Positions 26,917 to 40,509 of a stretch of 57,807 bases of DNA are shown piece after piece. Numbering within the stretch: the first letter of the stretch is position 1; every line of letters begins with the position of its first letter. The notes beneath the pieces were generated by a model that saw only the letters and a program-made list of their open reading frames with translations, did not search any database and had not been told where the DNA came from. The stretch lies in assembly GCA_016208165.1 (NCBI GenBank), contig JACQYL010000082.1:1-57807 (forward strand). The letters are read 5' to 3'. The translations under genes and the position numbers were made by a program. The stretch comes from Deltaproteobacteria bacterium. GTDB lineage: Bacteria > Desulfobacterota > Desulfarculia > JACQYL01.

Positions 26917-28191
26917 TCACCTGTCGAGGGCTTTCCGGCCGATATCCCTTCGGAAGTACGCGTCTTCCCACGAGATCTTGTTGACGGCCTCGTAGCATGT
27001 ATCGATCGCCTCGGCAATGGTGTCGCCTATACTGGTTACCCCCAGGACACGACCGCAGCTGGTGATATATCGACCATGGACGTCGAAATCCGTCCCGGCG
27101 TGGAATACGAGCACATCGCTCATGGAGGAAACGGCTTCCAGGCCCGAAATCACGTTTCCCTTCCGGTATTTTCCGGGATATCCTCCCGAGGTCATGACCA
27201 CACACACTGCGGGCCGGTGGCTCCATTTGACTTCCATTTCTCCGAGACGACCCTCGTTGACCGCTTGCAAAATACCTATCAGGTCGCTCTCAAGCCGCAT
27301 GAGCAAAGGTTGAGCCTCCGGATCGCCGAAGCGAGCATTGAATTCCAGCACCTGGGGGAGGCCGTCTTTGATCATAAGCCCCGCGTACAAAACCCCCTTA
27401 TAAGGGCGCCCTTCCTTGGCCATGCCTTCGATGGTCGGTATCATGATCTCCTTCATGATCCTGGTTTCAAGGGCCGGGCTGACGACCGGCGCGGGAGAAT
27501 AAGCGCCCATGCCCCCGGTATTAGGGCCCCGGTCGCCTTCGTAAATAGGCTTATGATCCTGGGAAGTGGGCATGGGGAGCACCGTTACGCCATCCGTAAA
27601 GACCAGGAAGCTCGCTTCTTCACCCTCGAGCTTGTCTTCCACGATCACGCGCTTGCCGGCGTCACCGAACAGCCTCTGAGTCATGATCCTGTCCAGGGCC
27701 TCCAGGGCCTCGGCTTCCTTATCGCAGAGGATAACCCCTTTACCCGCAGCCAGCCCATCGGCCTTCACCACTAAAGGAGTTCCCCTTTTCTTGATGTACT
27801 TCTCAGCTTCGGCCTGATCTTCAAATACTTCGAATTCCGCCGTTGGAATGCCATATTTTTTCATCAAGTTCTTCGAAAAGACCTTGCTTCCTTCGATTTC
27901 CGCCGCCGCCTTCGTGGGCCCGAATATGGGCAAACCCTTTTCCTGGAACGTATCCACAATGCCTTTGGTCAGAGGCACTTCCGGACCCACAACCGTGAGG
28001 TCCACCTGCGTCGTCTCCGCGTATTTGGTAAGGGTTTCGACGTCTTCCGCGACGATATCCAGGCACCATCCGATGCCGCTGATGCCGGCGTTGCCCGGCG
28101 CACACGCAACCGTTTCCACATCCGGGTTCTGCTTCAACTTCCAGACCAAGGCGTGCTCCCGGCCTCCTCCCCCAACCACCAGAATTTTCAT
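26917..28191 (-). CDS. purD: Phosphoribosylamine-glycine ligase
   Basis: The 424-residue protein joins glycine to phosphoribosylamine with ATP, the second step of purine synthesis. It has the N-terminal [13 protein letters not shown] motif, an ATP-grasp core ([47 protein letters not shown]) and the C-terminal domain. Length is typical. Its start overlaps the stop of the IMP cyclohydrolase gene by four bases (ATGA), and purE begins eight bases after its end, giving a tight purine block. Confidence 0.93.
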
Positions 28192-28799
28192 ACTTCTGTC
28201 CCCTCCACGGTCTGCCCTTCCAGATATCGGGAAATGGCGGCGTCGTACCGGTTCGTCAACTTGAACACCTTTCGAGCCAGATAGAAGCGTGTGGCCAACG
28301 TGGTCGAACCACTCCGCTCTCCCAACTCCTTCAGGACTCGCCCGTAGTCCGCGGGATCCACCACGACCGTGACGTATTTGAAGTTCTTGGCGGACGATCG
28401 CAGTAGCGTCGGCCCCCCTATGTCGATGTTTTCTATGGCCTCGTCCAGAGTGCAGCCTTCCCTCGCCACCGTCTTTTCGAAAGCATAAAGGTTCACCACA
28501 AGCAGGTCGATGGGGGCTATGCCGTACTCCTTCACTTGCCTCAAATGCTCTCGGTTTTCGCGTATGTAGAGAATGCCTCCATGGATTTTGGGGTGGAGCG
28601 TTTTCACCCGACCATCGAGCATCTCGGGAAATCCGGTGTATTCGGAAACCTCTTTGACGGTCACACCCCCCTCTTTCAAAGCCCGAGCCGTGCCACCGGT
28701 GGATAATATCTCCACTCCGAGTTCTCCCAGTTTCCGGGCGAACTCGACAATTCCCGTCTTATCCGTCACGCTGATCAAAGCGCGCTCAACTTTAGACAC
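28188..28799 (-). CDS. Stand-alone IMP cyclohydrolase (PurH N-terminal domain only)
   Basis: The 203-residue protein corresponds to only the MGS-like IMP cyclohydrolase half of PurH. Visible motifs are [37 protein letters not shown] and [15 protein letters not shown]. The AICAR transformylase domain that normally follows (about 310 residues) is absent. The gene stops naturally with a four-base overlap into purD, so this is not an interrupted reading frame. The AICAR formylation step must be done by another protein, such as a stand-alone transformylase or a PurP-type enzyme, not in this window. Stand-alone IMP cyclohydrolases are known in some deltaproteobacteria. Confidence 0.85.
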
Positions 28800-28856: not shown

Positions 28857-29339
28857 TCAGCTGGATGGCAACGGCGCTTCGGACCGGAGGAGCGTCATCA
28901 GTTCCTCGGTTTTCTCCTCCATAATTCTCGCCTCGGACTCGTCTTCCTCATGATCGTATCCAAATAAATGGAGGATTCCGTGGATCAGCAGAAAGTCGAG
29001 CCTCTCCCCGACCGTGATCCCAGAGTCTTCAGCCTCGCGGCTCGCCGTCTCGACGGAAATCACCACGTCTCCCAGAATCTCGGGCTGATCTTCCGAAAAG
29101 GGACCTTCACGCATTGGAAAGGAAAGCACATTGGTAGGGCGCCGGCGATTCAGATATTGCGAGTTGAGTTCGGCAATCGTCCGATCGTCTACCAGCAGAA
29201 CACTCAGTTCCACCGGATCAGAGACCAAGGCGCTTAAGATTTTCTTGATCCTGGACTTGAGGCTCGGCTTGTCGATCCCTAGCAGACGTTGCCGGTTGTC
29301 TAGAGATACTACCGTCTTTGTTTTTTGTTTGCGCTGCAC
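28857..29339 (-). CDS. ybeY: Endoribonuclease/rRNA maturation factor YbeY
   Basis: The 160-residue protein has the YbeY metal site HGILHLFGYDHEED, giving three histidines in the H-x3-H-x5-H pattern that bind zinc. It acts in 16S rRNA processing and ribosome quality control. Its start lies inside the upstream HD-hydrolase gene, overlapping by 122 bases. The family's N-terminal strand (VVSLDNRQRLLG) is encoded within the overlap, so the overlap appears real. The order phoH, HD hydrolase, ybeY is a widespread cluster. Confidence 0.88.
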   Translation of the reverse strand: MQRKQKTKTVVSLDNRQRLLGIDKPSLKSRIKKILSALVSDPVELSVLLVDDRTIAELNSQYLNRRRPTNVLSFPMREGPFSEDQPEILGDVVISVETASREAEDSGITVGERLDFLLIHGILHLFGYDHEEDESEARIMEEKTEELMTLLRSEAPLPSS

Positions 29340-31575
29340 CCTTTTCCACAGATTCCGGGTATTCGATTCGTTGATGAAAGATACCGTTTAGGATCTGATT
29401 AAAACTCTTAGCCACCTCGTGGAGATCTTTCAGGGTCAATTCGCACTGATCCAGCTGGCCGTCCGAAAACGCCTTGTTGATGATTTTTTGCACCATGCCC
29501 TGAACGCGGGCCGGATTCGGGTTTTGAAGCGTGTGGGATGCAGCTTCCACCACGTCGGCCAGCAGGACGAGCCCCGCCTCTTTGGTCTGCGGCTTTGGGC
29601 CTGGGTACCTGAAATCCGCTTCACTCAGACTTCCCTGATCCTGGGGTCCTTTCAACTCTTTGGCTTTCTGGTAGAAATAGGAAATGATGTTCGTGCCGTG
29701 GTGCTGTTGGATGATGTCTATAATTGCATTGCCCAATCGATTCTTCCTGGCCAACTCCACGCCTTCCTTCACATGGGAAATCAAAATAAGCGCGCTCATC
29801 GAAGGGGCCAACTTTTCGTGTCTGTTCTTGCCGGTTTGGTTCTCTATAAAATAGTCCGGTTTCTTGATCTTGCCCAGATCGTGGTAGTAGGCAGCTACCT
29901 TACATAGGAGCGAATTGGCGCCGATAGCCCTGCCCGCCGCTTCCACCAGCGTGCCGGCGATCAAGCTGTGATGGTAGGTACCCGGCGCCACGATCATGAG
30001 CCGTTTCAAAATGGGCGAGTCGAGATTGGCCAATTCCAGAAGTTTGATGTTCGTGGTGTATCCGAACGCCATTTCCCCGAGGGGAGTTAAACCCGTCACA
30101 ATAATTCCCGCCACGACGCCCCCGAGCAAGGCGAACGAGACATCGTAAATCGCCGCCTGAGTGAACAGGCTGTCCGTGACCATGTTGAGAGCCACAACCA
30201 GGAAGATATTGGACATCCCCACCAGCAGTCCGGCTTTGAGGAGCACGCTCCGATCGCGGCAATCCTGAACGGATATGGCGGCTACGAAGCCGCCGACCAG
30301 AAAATAGACGAAAAAGTGAAGGCTGTTTTGAATAACGAGCGCAGCGATAAAAGCAATGACCACTGAGACCATGATGGCCACGGGAACGCCAAGGAAAACG
30401 CTCGACAACATGGAACCGAGAGTGAGTGGAGTACTGTAAAGAGTCGAAGTCAAAGGGAAAATGAACAGGTCGGGGTCAAAACTACCTACGTAACCGGCAG
30501 GAAGCACGACAAGAAAACCCACGAAAGTCACAATGCCAAGAAAAAGCAGATCCTTGCTGTTCAATCGAATCCTCGGCATCATCTGTCCGACGGACTCACT
30601 GGCCACATACACAAGCATGCCCAGCAACAGGGACAGGCCGAAGAACCGTATCCAGGCCTGACCTTCCTTTTGCTTCGAGGCCAACGCGGCAAGTTCATCA
30701 ATTCGTCTTTGGTTGAGCTTCTCTCCTTCACGGACGATCATCTCATGCTTCTTGATCTTGTAGTATACGGGCTTGAAATCTCCGGCGGCATTGTCTTTTC
30801 TGCGGTCCCATTCCACCTTGTTCAGTATCAGGTTCGGGGCTAACAGGTCCTGAGCGATGCGAACAGCAAGCATCAAAGAAGGATACTTGTACTGACGCAA
30901 AAAATCGGCGGCGCGACTCTCGATGGTCTGTCGCGCCTGGCGTAACGATAGAAAACCTTCCAGATCAGGTACATGTTCTTCTTCCTTCGTCACAATGTTG
31001 CGGACGACGACGCCGCGTCCTCTGTCCACGTAGATGTCTCGCTTGGTGGCGATCAGGCCCTGGCGGAACACGGGTTCGATCAGGAAAAGGATGAGGTTCT
31101 CAACGTCTTCTGAAAACTTTCCCCGTTTGAGGATGTCGAACGCTTCGGCGTCCAAGTCCAGCCCTAAATCCTGGTTCCATTTAGCGAGACTCTGATCGAG
31201 AACCTCTTGCGGAATCTCTCCCGTCGGGTCGTCGGTATCGCTCTCCTGGGATAGCGTTCTTCGGGTAGTTTCGAACGTGGAGTGCAGCTTGGTGCTGATC
31301 TTTTTGAACATCACGGGATCGTAGTCGAACACAGCCGGCACGTCGTCTCTGGCCTGCTGTCGCCGTTCGTCCGTGGACGCCGTGTCTACAACCAGAAAGG
31401 TCACGTCCGCCTTGATATTGCTTTCCGCGACGTCTCCCACTTCGTACAGCTTTACTTTGGACAGCGTCTTGTGCGAGACCAAAAACGCAATGGAAAGGCA
31501 GAGCAAGATCAGAACGGCCCACCTGGGGGTGGAAGCGTGAACAAGCGTTTCCCGAAGAAACAGAATCTTCTTCAT
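29218..31575 (-). CDS. PgpH-type 7TM-HD family hydrolase (probable c-di-AMP phosphodiesterase)
   Basis: About 785 residues. An N-terminal membrane segment is followed by a long extracytoplasmic 7TMR-HDED domain (about residues 40-300), seven membrane helices (about 310-490), and a cytoplasmic HD domain. The HD metal ligands are visible in YHHSLIAGTLVEAAG, YYHDLGKIKKPDYF, LISHVKEGVELARK and IIQQHHGTN. In Listeria, PgpH hydrolyses cyclic di-AMP; the substrate here is inferred by family. The start is uncertain: 31575 begins one base after the phoH stop, while 31614 and 31653 are in-frame starts within phoH. The C-terminal 40 residues are low complexity and overlap ybeY. Confidence 0.85.
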   Translation of the reverse strand: MKKILFLRETLVHASTPRWAVLILLCLSIAFLVSHKTLSKVKLYEVGDVAESNIKADVTFLVVDTASTDERRQQARDDVPAVFDYDPVMFKKISTKLHSTFETTRRTLSQESDTDDPTGEIPQEVLDQSLAKWNQDLGLDLDAEAFDILKRGKFSEDVENLILFLIEPVFRQGLIATKRDIYVDRGRGVVVRNIVTKEEEHVPDLEGFLSLRQARQTIESRAADFLRQYKYPSLMLAVRIAQDLLAPNLILNKVEWDRRKDNAAGDFKPVYYKIKKHEMIVREGEKLNQRRIDELAALASKQKEGQAWIRFFGLSLLLGMLVYVASESVGQMMPRIRLNSKDLLFLGIVTFVGFLVVLPAGYVGSFDPDLFIFPLTSTLYSTPLTLGSMLSSVFLGVPVAIMVSVVIAFIAALVIQNSLHFFVYFLVGGFVAAISVQDCRDRSVLLKAGLLVGMSNIFLVVALNMVTDSLFTQAAIYDVSFALLGGVVAGIIVTGLTPLGEMAFGYTTNIKLLELANLDSPILKRLMIVAPGTYHHSLIAGTLVEAAGRAIGANSLLCKVAAYYHDLGKIKKPDYFIENQTGKNRHEKLAPSMSALILISHVKEGVELARKNRLGNAIIDIIQQHHGTNIISYFYQKAKELKGPQDQGSLSEADFRYPGPKPQTKEAGLVLLADVVEAASHTLQNPNPARVQGMVQKIINKAFSDGQLDQCELTLKDLHEVAKSFNQILNGIFHQRIEYPESVEKGAAQTKNKDGSISRQPATSARDRQAEPQVQDQENLKRLGL

Positions 31576-31576
31576 C

Positions 31577-32578
31577 CTAGAGGATATCTTGTCTCTTTTC
31601 TTCCGCTTTTCCATTCCGTTTGCGCTCCGATCGCCTCTGATCCAGTTTTTCATATGCTTCGATGATTTCCTGTACCAAAGGGTGGCGGATCACGTCCTCC
31701 CTGGTGAAGTACACAACTTCAATGCCTTTGATATTTGAAAGAATATCTCTGGCCTCGACCAATCCTGATGTGACGCCTGAAGGCAAATCAATTTGCGTTA
31801 TATCACCCGTGACCACGGCTTTCGACCCAAAACCGAGGCGGGTGAGAAACATCTTCATCTGTTCAGTCGTGCTGTTTTGCGCTTCGTCCAACACTACAAA
31901 AGAGTCATTCAAAGTTCGACCTCGCATGTACGCTAGAGGGGCCACTTCGATGGTGCCTTTCTGAATCGATCTCGAGGCCCGATCAAAATCCATCATATCG
32001 TGGAGTGCGTCATACAGAGGTCTCAGATAAGGGTCCACTTTTTCATATAAATCGCCGGGAAGGAATCCCAATTTTTCGCCTGCTTCCACGGCAGGCCGGG
32101 CCAGCACGATGCGGTTTACGTCCCCTCTGGAAAGTGCTGAAACCGCCATGGCCATGGCCAGATAGGTCTTCCCCGTCCCCGCGGGACCGATTCCGAATAC
32201 GAGATCGGCCCTTCGAACTGCATCGATGTACTGTTTTTGATTCCAGGTCTTCGGAATTATGACCCGCTTCTTGGAAGGAACAGGGATCCGCTCTTGAAAG
32301 ATTTCTTTCAAGCTGGTCTTTTTGTCGCTTCGTAAAACCCGAACGGCGAGTTCAACGTCGTTCGGGTGCAGAGAGTATCCATCCTCGATCAGGTGGTACA
32401 TCTCGATGAGGGATGCGTTGGCAACGGCGACATCATCGGCGCCGCCGGTTATGATCAGTTCATTCCCCCTGGCGTCTATCTTGACCCCTAGCTTGCGCTC
32501 CAATAGCTTGAGATTGGCGTTGTATTCGCCGAACAGAACCCGGGCGTAATTGTTATCCTTGAGTAAAAGCCTTTCCAT
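31577..32578 (-). CDS. phoH: PhoH-like ATPase
   Basis: The 333-residue protein has a KH-like N-terminal part (residues about 15-60) and a P-loop ATPase core with Walker A GPAGTGKT and Walker B VVLDEAQN, plus the arginine-rich RGRTLNDSF segment. PhoH-like proteins of this type are associated with ribosome or RNA handling alongside YbeY. The ATG at 32578 has GGGAG three bases upstream and matches the family's N-terminus. The open frame to 32812 contains non-family sequence. It leads a minus-strand operon with the HD hydrolase, ybeY and the purine genes. Confidence 0.88.
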
Positions 32579-32705
32579 AAGCTCCCGATTATGTTTCCAC
32601 TTCGCGAATGCCCAGTTTGTTTCTCGTCGTGTGAGGCTTCCTCTTCGCAGGACGATTCCCGTGTCGTCTCCATAGTGCGAGCATCCGGAGACGACGGCTC
32701 CCGAA

Positions 32706-33152
32706 TCAGGGTTCCTTTGGGATCTGCCCTGCTCCCATGATTTGTAGGATGACTTCTCTCTGGCGGGGTCGATTATCGAAATCGAGCAACACAATCTGCT
32801 GCCACGTGCCAAGGGTCAGCTTACCGGATAGAAGCGGAATGGACAACGACGGTCCCACCATGGCTGCCCGAACGTGAGAATACCCGTTGCCGTCGGACCA
32901 TCGTCGATCATGCTCGTATTCCAGATCCCGAGACGCCATTCGCTCGATCGCGCGCCTCAAGTCGTCGATTACCCCTCTTTCATACTCGATGGTGGTCAAC
33001 GCACCGGTAGACCCCGGCACAAACAGGGTAACCACGCCGTCTCGACAACCCGATTCACCGACCCTGTCCAGCACCTCCCCCGTTATGTCTAGGATATCGG
33101 TGCCGGAGGAGGTCTCGAAGGTCAGAATATAATGTGTAGATTTTGGTACCAT
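32706..33152 (-). CDS. YjbQ (UPF0047) family protein
   Basis: The 148-residue protein matches the small YjbQ family: [17 protein letters not shown] at the N-terminus, [14 protein letters not shown], then [20 protein letters not shown] with [13 protein letters not shown]. coli YjbQ has weak thiamine phosphate synthase activity; the true role is unclear. Key histidines of the family (HVRA and the HDRRW region) are visible. The start is uncertain between 33152 (ATG) and an upstream TTG at 33170. It is on the same strand as phoH but 127 bases away, so may be separately transcribed. Confidence 0.8.
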
Positions 33153-33309
33153 TTCGTGGGCCGACTGCAATCACCCTTAACACAACTATCTCCGCGAGGC
33201 AAGTAGATTCCTGTTTGTCGGCGAACGAAGTTTTTGAAATAACATGAAATAAAACGTTGCCTTACGAAGTAATACCTGTTATGAAAACCAAACAAGGAGC
33301 TTAAAATCG

Positions 33310-33870
33310 ATGTCGTTCAATCTCCTCGACCTAATCATAGTTCTCGTTTTGCTTATTCTGACCGCCCGCGGTTTTCAACAGGGAGTCATGCGTAACATGT
33401 TTTCAACCGTGGGCTTGATTGGGGGCTTTATCGCGGCATCACACTTCTTTTCCGATTTAGAGGCGATGTTGAGGGATTTCGTTTCTCTGAGTTTCCTCGA
33501 CTTTCTCTCGTTCGGACTGATTTTCCTGGTCGTCTATATGGGGGTGGCCCTGATTGGTCTCTCGTTCAGAAAGGCATTGTCCTCGGCGTCTCTTGGGATC
33601 GGGGACCGATTGTTGGGAGCTTCTCTGGGGCTGGCGAAAGGCGCCCTCGTGGTTTCGTTTGGCTTGATCGTGCTGACGTCGTTCCCAACGGATTCCGCTT
33701 TCGTCAACGAATCCGTTCTTGCTCGAAGAGGTCAGCCTTTTTATCAGCAAGTTGCCAGACTGGTGCCGGAGAAGCTTCAGAACGAATTGAATCGTAAATG
33801 GACAGAGACCAAGGATTCCTACGAACGCAAGTTGGAGGAGTTGCGGGCTCCGAAAAAGAGCAGCGAGTAG
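33310..33870 (+). CDS. cvpA: CvpA family membrane protein
   Basis: The 186-residue protein has four hydrophobic helices in its first 130 residues and a charged C-terminal tail, as in CvpA proteins (colicin V production accessory proteins), which have roles in envelope homeostasis. Recognisable family features are the FNLLDLIIVLVLLI start, RGFQQGVMRN and DRLLGASLGLAKGALV. An AAGGAG site lies about 10 bases before the ATG. It precedes the MazG-RNase III gene by 226 bases in the same direction. A 43-residue orphan frame (33933-34064) lies in that gap but has no recognisable similarity. Confidence 0.83.
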   Translation: MSFNLLDLIIVLVLLILTARGFQQGVMRNMFSTVGLIGGFIAASHFFSDLEAMLRDFVSLSFLDFLSFGLIFLVVYMGVALIGLSFRKALSSASLGIGDRLLGASLGLAKGALVVSFGLIVLTSFPTDSAFVNESVLARRGQPFYQQVARLVPEKLQNELNRKWTETKDSYERKLEELRAPKKSSE

Positions 33871-34096
33871 GACGGGCATTCCTGGACGCATAGCGAACGG
33901 CATCTATCGAGGAGGCGTGACTAGCTTTTATCATGCAGGAGACGTGCACTACGGTTGATCACCGTACATTCTCGTTTGGCTCCGGACACCCGATCGTGGA
34001 TCCGGAAGACCTGCATGCCGTGATTCCACCCCTGTTCCGTATCATCTCTACGCCCTCCGCCTAAACATTTCCACGACTTTTCCCTACTGACGAATT

Positions 34097-35611
34097 ATGG
34101 AAACAACGACTACAGAAAAGGCCTTCTCTCGTCTGATCGAATTGATACGCACGCTTCGTGGCGAAGACGGTTGTCCATGGGACCGCGTACAGACTCCCGC
34201 GTCCGTGGTCCCATATCTTCTGGAAGAGGCATTCGAGGTGGCCGATGCCTTCGAACGAGGTGACTCGGAGCAGTCCGCCTCTGAGTTGGGCGATCTTTTC
34301 TTCCAACTTATCTTCCTAATCGAAATGGAAAAGGAAAAGGGACATTTCGATTACACCACGGTCCTCGAATCCATTACAGAAAAGATGATCCGGAGACATC
34401 CTCACGTTTTCGGGGACGAGAAGATCTCGAGCGTTTCGGAAGTGGCGCAAAATTGGCATCGCATCAAACAGGAGGAACATAAAGGTAGAGAGTCCGACCA
34501 GCTGGACTCCATTCCCGGAAACATGCCGGCCCTCATGTACGCTCAACGCGTGGGAGAGCGTGCTTCCAAAGCAGGGTTTGACTGGAATGATGCGCAAGGC
34601 GTCCTGGACAAAGCCGAAGAGGAATGGCGCGAGCTCAGGGAATCCATCGGGTCCAATGGCATGGACCACCCTTCGGTTCGAGAGGAATTAGGCGATCTGC
34701 TGTTCACGCTTGTGAATGTCTGCCGGTTCATGAAAGCCCCGGCGGAGCTTCTGCTCCGGTATGCGGTGATCAAGTTCCTCCGTCGGTTTAAAGCAGTCCT
34801 GCAAGATATCGAGTCTTCCGGCAAGGCCGCAAGGGATGTGTCGCCGGCCGAACTCGATCAAGTATGGAATGCAATCAAGGGCGCCGAAAAGCCCGGGGAA
34901 GAAAGGCTCCAGGAGTTGCAGGCGCAGGTCGAGCGGTCGGTGGGATATCGCTTCGGACGCCCGGAATTGTTGAGACAGGCCCTCTGTCATGACTCGTACG
35001 CCAACGAGCACCCGCAAGAATTCGATCAGAGTAACGAACGACTTGAATTCTTGGGGGATTCCGTATTGTCGCTTCTGATTTCAACCAAACTCTTCCACAG
35101 GTTCCCGGACGCGCAAGAGGGTGACTTGTCGAAAATGCGCGCCTTTTTGGTCAACTCCCAGTCATTGGCTACCGCAAGCAGGTCCCTTGGATTGGACCAT
35201 TTCTTGTTGCTCGGAAAAGGTGAAGAAAGCACGGGAGGACGTCAAAAGGATTCGATTCTCGCCGACACCATGGAAGCCGTATTGGGTGCAATCTATTTGG
35301 ACGGCGGACTGGCGGCGACCGAAGGGATCGTGGAAAGGACCATAGGAGAACAGATTCGCTCAGGGGAACTGGTTACCAAGACGTCCGACCACAAAAGTCG
35401 GCTTCAGGAAATCTCCTATGCTCTCTTTAAGATCCACCCTCAGTATGAGCTCATTGGTGAAGAAGGTCCTGATCACGACAAAACCTTCTCGGTCCAGGCA
35501 CTACTCGACGGCAAAAAACTGGCGGAAGGAAAAGGCCGTACAAAAAAGGACGCGGCTCAACAGGCCGCTCAAACAGCCTTGAAAAGGATTGAAGCGGGGT
35601 GGCGTCCCTAA
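34097..35611 (+). CDS. MazG nucleotide pyrophosphohydrolase fused to RNase III
   Basis: The 504-residue protein joins two complete enzymes. Residues about 1-265 are MazG with both repeats and their metal motifs: EEAFEVADAFERG with ELGDLFFQLIF, and KAEEEWRELRES with REELGDLLFTLV. Residues about 275-504 are RNase III: NERLEFLGDSVL, EGDLSKMRAF, DTMEAVLGAIYLDGG, and a C-terminal double-stranded RNA-binding domain (SRLQEISYALF, EGKGRTKKDAAQQAAQTAL). All catalytic acidic residues I can identify are kept. MazG removes abnormal NTPs; RNase III processes rRNA and other double-stranded RNA. The linker (KGAEKPGEERLQELQAQ) has no stop or start. The radical SAM and era genes that often accompany rnc follow directly, so this is the organism's likely RNase III. 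Confidence 0.88.
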   Translation: METTTTEKAFSRLIELIRTLRGEDGCPWDRVQTPASVVPYLLEEAFEVADAFERGDSEQSASELGDLFFQLIFLIEMEKEKGHFDYTTVLESITEKMIRRHPHVFGDEKISSVSEVAQNWHRIKQEEHKGRESDQLDSIPGNMPALMYAQRVGERASKAGFDWNDAQGVLDKAEEEWRELRESIGSNGMDHPSVREELGDLLFTLVNVCRFMKAPAELLLRYAVIKFLRRFKAVLQDIESSGKAARDVSPAELDQVWNAIKGAEKPGEERLQELQAQVERSVGYRFGRPELLRQALCHDSYANEHPQEFDQSNERLEFLGDSVLSLLISTKLFHRFPDAQEGDLSKMRAFLVNSQSLATASRSLGLDHFLLLGKGEESTGGRQKDSILADTMEAVLGAIYLDGGLAATEGIVERTIGEQIRSGELVTKTSDHKSRLQEISYALFKIHPQYELIGEEGPDHDKTFSVQALLDGKKLAEGKGRTKKDAAQQAAQTALKRIEAGWRP

Positions 35612-36618
35612 CTCCTTTCATTATACCCATTTTTACACCCCATTTAGGGTGCCCGCACAGATGCGTATTCTGCAACCAGCACGCCATTACGGGAACACGG
35701 TTGGAGATCCATCGAATTCCCGGAATCATCGAGACGGCTCTCTCTTCCCCTAAACGGAAGAACCGACCGGTTGAGATCGCGTTCTACGGAGGCAATTTCG
35801 CTTCCTTGCCCGACGACGTCCAGGCGGATCTCCTCTCGCCCTGCATGAAGTACATAGAGTCCAAAGTGGTCCGGACCATCCGCATTTCCTCTAGACCGGA
35901 CTCGTTCGACAGGCGCGTCGTGCAGCGCCTCAAAGACCTGGGGGTCGGCGCCATAGAGATCGGAGCCCAAAGCCTCGACGACAGTGTGTTGAAACTCAGT
36001 AAAAGAGGACATACATCTCGTCAGATTCAAGAAGCGGCTGGATTATTGCACTCGGCCGGCCTGCACGTCGGTATTCAAATCATGCTCGGGCTTCCGGGTG
36101 ACACCCGACAGAAAGCCTTGGACACGGCGCAGAAGGTGGTGGAACTCGGTCCGCAGATAGCCCGTATCTACCCGACGGTAGTTCTGCGAGACAGCGAATT
36201 GGCTCATCAATACCTCATGGGCAGATACCATCCTTTGTCTCTGGAGGAAGCAGTTGGACTCTGTAGCGAAATATTGAATATACTGGAACGAGGTGGCGTC
36301 CGGGTTATCCGAATGGGACTTCAGGACAGCGAGTCTCTCACCGGAAGTAACGGCCTTTTTGCTGGGCCCCACCACCCGGCTTTCGGACAACTGGTCCGGG
36401 CCGCTTCATGGCTGCACCGGGCCCAATCTGCGATTCAGGCCTGCTCCTGTCCGGGCGACGGGGGATGTTTCCGCGTACACCCTTCCCAGGTGAGCAACCT
36501 GAAGGGACAGAGAAGTAGTAACTTGCGAGCACTAGAAAAGAACTGGGGCCTCCGAAAACTTAGTGTTGTCGGAGATCCCTCACTGGACATAACGGAATGC
36601 TGTTTTGAACCGGACTGA
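35599..36618 (+). CDS. Radical SAM protein, Elp3-like without acetyltransferase domain
   Basis: The 339-residue protein has the radical SAM cluster motif CPHRCVFCNQ (C-x3-C-x2-C near residue 18) and further family features (AFYGGNFASLP, ISSRPDS, EIGAQSLDD, GLQIMLGLPGD-like segment). It resembles the Elp3 catalytic domain but lacks the GNAT acetyltransferase part. Genes of this type commonly sit between rnc and era. Its product is uncharacterised; a role in tRNA or rRNA modification is inference. The likely start is a GTG at 35599 that overlaps the end of the MazG-RNase III gene by 13 bases. Its own end overlaps era by 14 bases. Confidence 0.8.
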   Translation: MASLTPFIIPIFTPHLGCPHRCVFCNQHAITGTRLEIHRIPGIIETALSSPKRKNRPVEIAFYGGNFASLPDDVQADLLSPCMKYIESKVVRTIRISSRPDSFDRRVVQRLKDLGVGAIEIGAQSLDDSVLKLSKRGHTSRQIQEAAGLLHSAGLHVGIQIMLGLPGDTRQKALDTAQKVVELGPQIARIYPTVVLRDSELAHQYLMGRYHPLSLEEAVGLCSEILNILERGGVRVIRMGLQDSESLTGSNGLFAGPHHPAFGQLVRAASWLHRAQSAIQACSCPGDGGCFRVHPSQVSNLKGQRSSNLRALEKNWGLRKLSVVGDPSLDITECCFEPD

Positions 36619-37504
36619 GATCTACAAATCGGGATTTGTCGCTTTGATCGGAACGCCCAACGCGGGCAAGTCGACCTTACTGAACCGGATTTTGGGGCAG
36701 AAGATATCCATTACTTCCTCGAAACCTCAGACCACGAGAAATCGCATACTGGGTGTAAGGCATTACGATGGAGGTCAAATGGTCTTCTTGGATACTCCCG
36801 GTATCCACCGCGCCCAATCGAAACTGAACCAGCGGATGGTATCGACGGCGACGTCCACCCTCTCCGAAGTCGACGCCATACTCTGGGTGCTCGACGCCTC
36901 CACGTCTGCCTACAGGGATTCGGAGGAGCTGATTGCAAGCCTTTTACTCGACTCATCGGCGCCGGTAGTCCTGTGCGCAAACAAGGCGGACCTCGTATCG
37001 GAAGAGACTCTCCAGGAGGCCATCGAGCGAGTGAAATCCGGACAGCGCTTTCAACGAATCCTGACGGTTTCCGCCCTTCGTGGAACAGGCATAGATGAAT
37101 TGCTGGGCGAAATCGAGCGCCTGCTTCCCGAAGGCCCTCCCTATTTCCCACCGGACATGGTGACCGACCTTCCGGAACGTTTTCTGGCGGCCGAAATTAT
37201 TCGGGAGAAAGTCATCAGGCTGTGCTCTCAGGAAATACCCCACGCCGTGGCGGTCACCGTAGATTCATTCAAGGAAAACGAAGCCAAAAAGATGGTTGTG
37301 ATCCAGGCCACCATTCATGTGGAACGCGACTCTCAAAAGGGAATTCTGATAGGCAAGGAAGGCAAAATGCTCAAACGCATCGGTTCGTCTTCCAGGCAGG
37401 ATCTCGAAGTTTTGCTGGGAGTGCACGTCTATTTGGAGCTGTGGGTTCGCGTTCAGCGTGACTGGAGAAAGAAGGACCGGGCAATTGAGGATTTCGGCTA
37501 TTAG
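36605..37504 (+). CDS. era: GTPase Era
   Basis: The 299-residue protein has all five GTPase motifs (GTPNAGKST, the TT pair after SSKPQ, DTPG, NKAD and SALRGTG). It ends with the KH RNA-binding domain (GILIGKEGKMLKRIG). Era binds the 3' end of 16S rRNA during small-subunit assembly. The start appears to be a TTG at 36605 overlapping the upstream radical SAM gene, which suggests translational coupling. Together with RNase III upstream this forms the common rnc-era ribosome-maturation cluster. Confidence 0.93.
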   Translation: MNRTEIYKSGFVALIGTPNAGKSTLLNRILGQKISITSSKPQTTRNRILGVRHYDGGQMVFLDTPGIHRAQSKLNQRMVSTATSTLSEVDAILWVLDASTSAYRDSEELIASLLLDSSAPVVLCANKADLVSEETLQEAIERVKSGQRFQRILTVSALRGTGIDELLGEIERLLPEGPPYFPPDMVTDLPERFLAAEIIREKVIRLCSQEIPHAVAVTVDSFKENEAKKMVVIQATIHVERDSQKGILIGKEGKMLKRIGSSSRQDLEVLLGVHVYLELWVRVQRDWRKKDRAIEDFGY

Positions 37505-38255: not shown

Positions 38256-38867
38256 AAATGGTTATCCTTACTTATAAGCGAAAAATGATGTTCGGCGATT
38301 CGGGCCCACATGCTTCCGCATGAGGAACGGCCTCTCCTGTATGGTTCTGCAGGATGGAAATCAGAAGATCCGACGCTCCGGATGAAGGCAAAGCATTACT
38401 ATTGACAGACGTCCTTGCCTAGGCTATGTACAGACTGCGGTTGTGAAGATCGGCACGATGTAGGACGTAAACCCAACGAGCTTGAAGGAGCAACCAAGGT
38501 CGAATTGAACCCTGTGGCGAAGCCACAGACGAAAGCCGGGTTCTCTGTTCCGTCCTCTCACCGCTATTAAAACGGTCGTGCATGGGCCCTGCGGGGGATG
38601 GCTTCCGCCTTCGCACCGAGAAAAGCTGAACGAGCGGTCGTTCCTTTCTTTGATTTCCGTGCGGACGGCATATCCCGGGTCCTTGAAGGCTGCCATCTCT
38701 CTCCGAACCGCCAGGTTTGTACGGTTCCTTGGCGCGACCGCTCCTGCGCAATCACTTAGGTTGCGCATTCTATTAGAAACCGCTTTGGTTTACAATAAAC
38801 TATTTTTATTGATTTGGAGCTGGATGGACAAAGTATCATTTTTCGGAAGTTTCAAGGGGAACATTTC
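38256..38867. other. Long unassigned region between hydrolase and the Hdr cluster
   Basis: No convincing gene is visible in about 610 bases, although minus-strand open frames of 110 residues run through it with no recognisable similarity. A perfect small hairpin CTGTGGC-GAA-GCCACAG lies at 38512-38528. An AT-rich palindrome CAATAAA-CTATT-TTTATTG (38793-38811) lies 57 bases before the HdrC-like gene and could be an operator. The middle part is GC-rich and could hold a structured RNA, but I cannot match it to any family. Confidence 0.4.
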
Positions 38868-40509
38868 ATGCTTTTCTCTGTATGTTTGTATGTCGCTTTA
38901 GTTATCTTTGGAATCGGTATTTGCGTCCGGCTGGCATCGTGGTTTCGGTACCGAATAGGGAATGAAGCTCAGGCAATTACGGCTTGGGAGAGGATCTCTT
39001 CCGCTGTTTCAGGTCTGTTTCAAGTTGTTTTCAGCGCTAAGATAGGTACGCTTATTAAGGTATTCTTCCTGGACGTTCTGCTCCAGCGAAAGGTGCTGAA
39101 AGAAGATGTCGTTCGATGGATCATGCACATGTGCATTTACGGCGGTTTTACCTTGCTGTTATTGATGCTTCACGGGGTACTCGGCCACCGTAAACCCTTA
39201 CCTGTTCCTGAGGAATCTATTTGGCGCGCTGGTGATCCTGGGTCTGGCGATCGCCGTCGTCCGGCGTATAGTTGTGCCCGGCATGAGGCGGACGACCCGG
39301 CCCATGGATGTCTACGTCATGACCTTGGTGGGAATCATCCTGGTCTCCGGCGTTTTTCTGGAAGCGACCAAGATCGTGTCCTATACCAGCTTTCAAGAGA
39401 TGGTAGAGGAGTGGGCCTCCCTGGATGAGGACGAACTGGAACATCTGAAAGCGTATTGGGCCGAAGACTTCGGCGTGGTGTTTCCCGAACCCGTGGCCGC
39501 CACGGATCCGGACGCCCTTGAGATGGGAAAAGAGGTGCATGAGGTCAGCTGCGCCTCGTGCCATTCGAAACCGACCTGGGCGTTCCTGTCGTACGGCGTG
39601 TCCAAGGCCATCGGCCCCATAGCCGTGACCCTGACGGACGCCCGTACGCAGGTGGGACTCTGGTATCTCCATTTCCTGGTCTGTTTCGTGGGCCTGGCCT
39701 ACCTTCCCTTCAGCAAGCTCTTTCACATGTTGTCCAGCCCGGTAAGCCTTCTGGCCAACGCCGTCATGGATACCGGCGCGTCGGCGAGGGCCAACGTAGT
39801 GACCCGGCGGGCGATGGAGCTGGATGCGTGCACGCATTGCGCTACGTGCAGTATACACTGCTCCGTGGGGGTGGTGTTCCGGCAGATTGCCAATGAGACC
39901 ATCCTGCCTTCGGAAAAGTTGATTTCATTGAAGGCCATGGCATCGGGGAAACCGCTGGATGGGAAGGAACTCCGAAGGATCCAGGAGGGGAGTTACATCT
40001 GCACCAGCTGTTATCGGTGCACGTCGGTGTGTCCCGTGGGCATCAATCTGCAGGACTTGTGGCTGAGCATGCGGGAGGATCTGTTGCGTCAAGGATATCC
40101 TGAAAACGCGGCCTGGGCCCGCCACGTGCTTGCGGACCGGTTCGGCGGCGCGTTGAGGGACAAGAACGCATCCGTGACGCCCGCCGCCGGGGATCTGCAG
40201 AAGGACATGACGGTATCCCTGCAGGCCGAGACGTTTTCATCCTGTTTCGAGTGCCAGACCTGCACCAATGTCTGCCCGGTGGTCGGCAACTATGAAAATC
40301 CCCGGGAAACCTTGGGCCTGCTCCCGCACCAGATCATGCATTCGCTGGGCCTGGGCCTGGAAAACGAAGCGTTGGGTAATCAGATGATTTGGGATTGTCT
40401 GACCTGCTACATGTGTCAGGAACACTGTCCTCAGGGAGTTCAGGTGACCGACGTCCTGTACGAGTTGAAAAACAGGGCTTACGCCCGCCTGACCGACGAG
40501 GAAGCGTAG
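38868..40509 (+). pseudogene. HdrC-like membrane iron-sulphur protein with haem motif, frameshifted
   Basis: The gene starts at 38868 (MLFSVCLYVALVIFGIGI, with AGGGGAAC upstream) and runs to about 39175. There the frame shifts by one and continues to 40509. In the second frame, reading back from 39232, the sequence GYSATVNPYLFLRNLFGALV joins naturally to the first part. The whole encodes about five NarI-like membrane helices, a haem c site (CASCH), and four sets of iron-sulphur cysteines (CTHCATCSIHC, CTSCYRCTSVC, CFECQTCTNVC and CLTCYMCQEHC). It resembles HdrC/E or DsrM/K-type electron-transfer subunits. It leads an HdrCBA-like set. The shift could be genuine inactivation, programmed frameshifting or sequencing error; a stop at 39163-39165 in the second frame rules out initiation further upstream. 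Confidence 0.7.

Follow-up and report, generated by a model that had tools for sequence, protein, structure and literature searches.

The question raised by this locus is whether MazG and RNase III, two widespread housekeeping enzymes, are encoded as one polypeptide in a deltaproteobacterial genome and, if so, how such a gene came about and whether the joining serves a function. The window, by which we mean the whole stretch of 57,807 nucleotides that was analysed, carries the gene on its forward strand, with the following features:

34097..35611 (+), MazG-RNase III fusion gene, 504 aa, single open frame
34106..34888 (+), MazG half, residues ~4-264, two MazG domains in tandem that carry acidic metal-binding motifs
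34889..34897 (+), junction, residues 265-267 (KPG), where the native C-terminus of MazG meets the native N-terminus of RNase III
34898..35593 (+), RNase III half, residues ~268-499, N-terminal helix, endonuclease domain and dsRNA-binding domain

The fusion gene and its active sites

The frame runs from ATG to TAA through 504 codons without an internal stop. The NCBIfam MazG equivalog NF007113 was matched by residues 10-261 over profile positions 2-249 of 251 (283.9 bits against a cut-off of 208), and the RNase III equivalog TIGR02191 by residues 279-498 over positions 2-219 of 219 (249.5 bits against 166.25), while Pfam recognised MazG in two stretches, alongside the RNase III domain and the dsRBD (PF14622, PF00636, PF00035). 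Among solved structures, the sequence was matched best by E. coli MazG over residues 10-263 (3CRA) and by T. maritima RNase III over residues 273-497 (1O0W). Catalytic residues were mapped by alignment to E. coli K-12 MazG and RNase III. The motif EExx(E/D)...ExxD is the metal-binding motif of MazG (PMC10014863), and its acids are kept in both domains, with E39/E42/E58/D61 of E. coli domain 1 at fusion positions 44, 47, 63 and 66, and E172/E175/E193/D196 of domain 2 at 176, 179, 197 and 200. In the second enzyme E38, E41, D45, E65, D114 and E117 are identical in all six cases, at 314, 317, 321, 341, 390 and 393. The N-terminal half thus has what defines a MazG, namely an above-cut-off match to the whole profile together with the motif acids, and the C-terminal half has what defines a bacterial RNase III, an above-cut-off match, an endonuclease domain with dsRBD and the six catalytic acids. 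The original prediction of a single-polypeptide fusion with both active sites intact was therefore borne out, as one continuous frame holds a complete MazG and a complete RNase III in which every mapped catalytic acid is kept.

The junction reads ...VWNAIKGAE-KPG-EERLQELQAQVERSVGYRF, with a linker of 3-6 residues. The MazG tail VWNAIKGAE corresponds to LWEEVKAAE in relatives, whose MazG C-termini end in an LWEEVKAAE-like stretch and then 0-15 residues; the RNase III N-terminus EERLQELQAQVERSVGYRF corresponds to NEERTIALRNLERRLSYNF in relatives, whose N-termini have about 5-20 residues ahead of an LGYRF-like motif. Judged by these alignments, neither the MazG nor the RNase III end has lost anything recognisable at the junction.

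The source genome comprises 5.69 Mb in 142 contigs and is estimated to be 95.5% complete. A whole-genome search of this 95.5%-complete assembly found neither a second MazG nor a second RNase III, so that the separate rnc or mazG which the original prediction had proposed to look for was not encountered. The fusion is the only known source of both functions in this genome, of which about 4-5% is missing, and since it is the sole MazG and the sole RNase III, selection on both halves is expected.

Gene neighborhood and gene order in relatives

The fusion gene is flanked by the following genes:

28857..29339 (-), presumed YbeY-like rRNA-processing protein, HGILHLFGYDH motif
29218..31653 (-), PgpH-like 7TMR-HD protein
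31577..32812 (-), PhoH/YbeZ
32706..33170 (-), YjbQ/UPF0047 protein, divergent neighbor of CvpA-MazG in relatives
33310..33870 (+), CvpA-family gene, upstream partner of mazG in relatives
35599..36618 (+), radical SAM protein (Elp3-like), overlapping the end of the fusion gene
36605..37504 (+), GTPase Era

The gene at 28857..29339 is one that we take to be YbeY-like from its HGILHLFGYDH motif, recognised from family knowledge. Across 28857-37504 the genes YbeY-PgpH-PhoH-YjbQ are divergent from CvpA-MazG::RNaseIII-rSAM-Era, forming a cluster rich in ribosome-biogenesis genes. The genes rnc and era are classical operon partners, and the rnc-era context that had been noted for this locus was found, in the order rnc-radical SAM-era. 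Next to this cluster, at 28188-28799 (-) and adjoining purD, lies a gene for a 203-aa protein in which an MGS-like domain is accompanied by no more than the first 60 positions of the AICARFT/IMPCHase model, a candidate for an IMP cyclohydrolase-only or truncated PurH protein.

When the window genes were searched by tblastn against relatives of the class, two separate conserved modules were seen, PhoH(-)-YjbQ(-)/CvpA(+)-MazG(+) and RNaseIII-rSAM-Era, and in those relatives where both genes were located mazG and rnc lay apart. In the window both modules stand end to end, and the boundary between them is the exact fusion point. An unfused counterpart was found in loci L097 and L098 of the genomes G736 and G772, the matching two of three genomes examined of their class, a class more distant from the source. 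Here mazG-rnc-rSAM have the same order and orientation as in the window, and the two halves of the fusion are matched at 44% and 47-48% identity, but a TAA closes mazG and, after a spacer of about 90 nt, rnc begins with an ATG of its own; era comes next in G772, whose stretch reaches era. A 539-aa open frame in G736 was considered as a second fusion and rejected, since TAA stops and a spacer separate mazG from rnc in its DNA. The order in these two genomes indicates that mazG-rnc adjacency is natural and that deletion of a short spacer with its stop and start would yield the gene observed; the adjacency itself is either ancestral to the source lineage or of independent origin.

These data suggest a lineage-specific fusion that followed the juxtaposition of two operons and yielded a bifunctional housekeeping protein in which both halves would keep their ordinary jobs, a reading to which we assign a probability of roughly 0.77. 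In the ancestry of the organism the CvpA-mazG module would have come to sit directly upstream of the rnc-rSAM-era module, after which the two frames would have been joined when a short spacer was lost together with the stop of mazG and the start of rnc; the order in G736 and G772 would represent the gene order before fusion. The original prediction had offered fusion by loss of a stop as one explanation, which comes close to this reading, although the case is better described as two operons brought side by side, with the spacer, stop and start between them lost afterwards.

Distribution of the architecture

The genomes compared include none of the source's own order, the nearest relative among them belonging to another order, and a MazG-RNase III fusion was present in 0 of the 62 other genomes of the class. 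With a junction query (residues 201-338) run on 395 sampled genomes of the phylum, none of the matches listed spanned both sides; those listed cover the RNase III side. Full-length searches were run on 249 genomes from the phylum to which G441 belongs (G441 being the source of locus L034, a Thermoactinomyces record) and on 148 from that of G444. Their best matches listed (E <= 1e-66) were all of MazG length, at a cut-off so strict that a distant fusion whose two parts score separately could be missed. A viral origin of the fusion was rejected, as no related viral contig was matched. Occurrence in more than one lineage, the mark of an established architecture, was not observed in the genomes surveyed. 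The openly licensed literature that was searched held nothing relevant on a MazG-RNase III protein, and the claim that this is not a described architecture accordingly stands for that literature and for the genomes surveyed. The domain architecture is apparently undescribed, is built of known families and has been seen so far in one genome.

Other RNase III proteins with additions at the N-terminus were met during the survey:

L076:577-2184 (+), PHP phosphoesterase-RNase III fusion, genome G094
L121:1576-3186 (-), PHP phosphoesterase-RNase III fusion, genome G432
L123:1759-2844 (+), RNase III extended at its N-terminus by about 100 residues, no kind assigned, genome G445 (Deltaproteobacteria record)

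In G094 and G432, which belong to one family of the source's phylum, a PHP-domain phosphoesterase is fused to a complete RNase III in a protein of 535-536 aa that is conserved in both; their long rnc frames were for this reason rejected as MazG fusions. Of the genomes with a long open frame around rnc, G020 and G079 among them, a subset was read.

Possible assembly error and internal starts

It is possible to explain a fused frame by a sequencing or assembly error in which two adjacent genes were joined by an indel, a substitution or a chimeric join near 34880-34930. The linker contains CCCGGGG and AAA runs, several of its codons are one substitution away from a stop, and mazG and rnc are unlinked in class relatives. 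The contig also holds a second gene of interest in this respect, an Hdr-like Fe-S/cytochrome gene (Nitrate_red_gam and Fer4; 38814-40509, +) about 3.6 kb downstream, in which a deletion of about 40 nt near 39165 changes the frame and splits the gene; it is intact in 13 of 13 matching class relatives, with frames of about 560-605 aa. This split is either a pseudogene or an assembly fault, and it means that changes of frame, whether real or introduced by assembly, do arise in the contig. Nonetheless, the original suggestion of a missed stop near 34900 did not hold, as there is none in frame, and the other two frames have their nearest stops at 34971 and 34990; had an indel joined the genes, mazG would reach one of these and overlap rnc by about 80-120 nt, which is unusual. 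Furthermore, a canonical rnc start is absent from the expected place in frame 0, the base composition of the linker is coding-like in that frame, a chimeric join would need an exact, in-frame meeting of both gene ends, and G736 and G772 demonstrate that mazG-rnc adjacency is a real gene order. We therefore regard an error as very unlikely.

A different matter is whether a free RNase III is made besides the fusion, either from an internal start (TTG 34916 or GTG 34940) or by a cut at the hinge between the halves. The TTG lies as follows:

34916..34918 (+), in-frame TTG, residue 274, possible start of a free RNase III, with the purine-rich GGGGAAGAAAGG upstream (not distinguishable from chance)

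Translation from this TTG would yield MQAQVERSVGYRF..., a length that is natural for many RNase IIIs, and the neighboring rSAM and Era frames, as listed, also start with GTG or TTG. As for cleavage, the AlphaFold2 model of the fusion has two well-folded halves (mean pLDDT 87.5, pTM 0.46) with a helix break or hinge at residues 263-266, predicted to be non-helical and modelled at lower confidence; at a pTM of 0.46 the relative orientation of the two halves is not predicted. In the model alignment the G736 mazG-rnc region, read through its TAA, served as anchor row only, and the E. coli rows were left out. Against an internal start, the anti-SD pairing upstream of TTG 34916 (-5.7 kcal/mol) is matched by 23% of random positions, no ATG lies near the junction, and residues 249 to 273 contain no ATG, GTG or TTG in frame 0. 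A free RNase III is thus a tentative and somewhat doubtful addition, and it is compatible with the fusion reading, to which it is not an exclusive alternative.

Discussion

The preferred reading remains that of a lineage-specific fusion of neighboring genes. Each half would work much like the separate enzyme, MazG splitting (non-canonical) NTPs into NMP and pyrophosphate and RNase III cutting double-stranded RNA, such as rRNA precursors. From the sequence, two ordinary housekeeping activities in one chain is the safest reading, and we infer expression as one polypeptide with both activities and no essential coupling between the halves. RNase III is a dimer. Characterised MazG members are dimeric or tetrameric (PMC10014863). 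For both reasons the fusion chain is expected to be dimeric or larger.

It may also be proposed that the fusion was selected for its function. Binding of Era by E. coli MazG has been published (Zhang and Inouye 2002, cited in PMC10582724), and the MazG-Era pair has been used as a two-hybrid positive control (PMC5101352). A natural MazG-RNase III-Era module can be imagined in which the affinity of MazG for Era would tether RNase III to Era and the pre-30S particle, bringing it to the assembling small subunit and coupling nucleotide sanitation, or GTP/ppGpp-linked alarmone control, with rRNA processing. The fusion gene and era apparently share one operon, beside ybeY-, phoH/ybeZ- and pgpH-like genes, and mazG and rnc are unfused neighbors in another lineage (G736, G772); both observations are consistent with such a role. 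Yet the fused state was seen in one genome only, a fusion can be neutral, and PMC10582724 gives Era GTPase activity as unchanged by MazG and the significance of the binding as unexplained. Coupling of nucleotide quality control to rRNA processing is conceivable because of the published MazG-Era interaction and nothing else, and we consider a selected module improbable, if less so than an assembly error.

If real and made as one chain, the protein would be an apparently undescribed architecture of two widespread housekeeping enzymes, encoded beside era, would indicate that RNase III tolerates a large N-terminal enzyme, and would offer a concrete handle on the long-known, unexplained MazG-Era binding; were the module proposal true, MazG-RNase III-Era would be a "Rosetta stone" for that interaction in E. 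coli. If neutral, it would be an ordinary fusion of neighboring genes.

Compared with known systems, the protein resembles E. coli MazG (PDB 3CRA, NF007113) as a full-length tandem-domain MazG over the equivalog cut-off with its catalytic acids kept, but it has no stop of its own and runs on into RNase III. It likewise resembles the bacterial RNase III proteins (E. coli Rnc, T. maritima 1O0W, TIGR02191) in its complete endonuclease domain and dsRBD, its six catalytic acids and its rnc-rSAM-era context, but it lacks its own start codon at the usual place and carries a 264-residue MazG at the N-terminus. The PHP-RNase III proteins of G094 and G432 are alike in placing another phosphohydrolase N-terminal to a complete RNase III, whereas their N-terminal domain (3',5'-nucleoside bisphosphate phosphatase / RNase Rnm-like) is unrelated to MazG and the pair is known from two genomes of one family. 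In YabN, the tetrapyrrole methylase-MazG fusion (NF052436), the partner is an N-terminal methyltransferase and not RNase III, and the present fusion falls under the NF052436 cut-off (284 against 525 bits); nevertheless the MazG half matches at 2.4e-84, and YabN provides a precedent for MazG inside a bifunctional protein.
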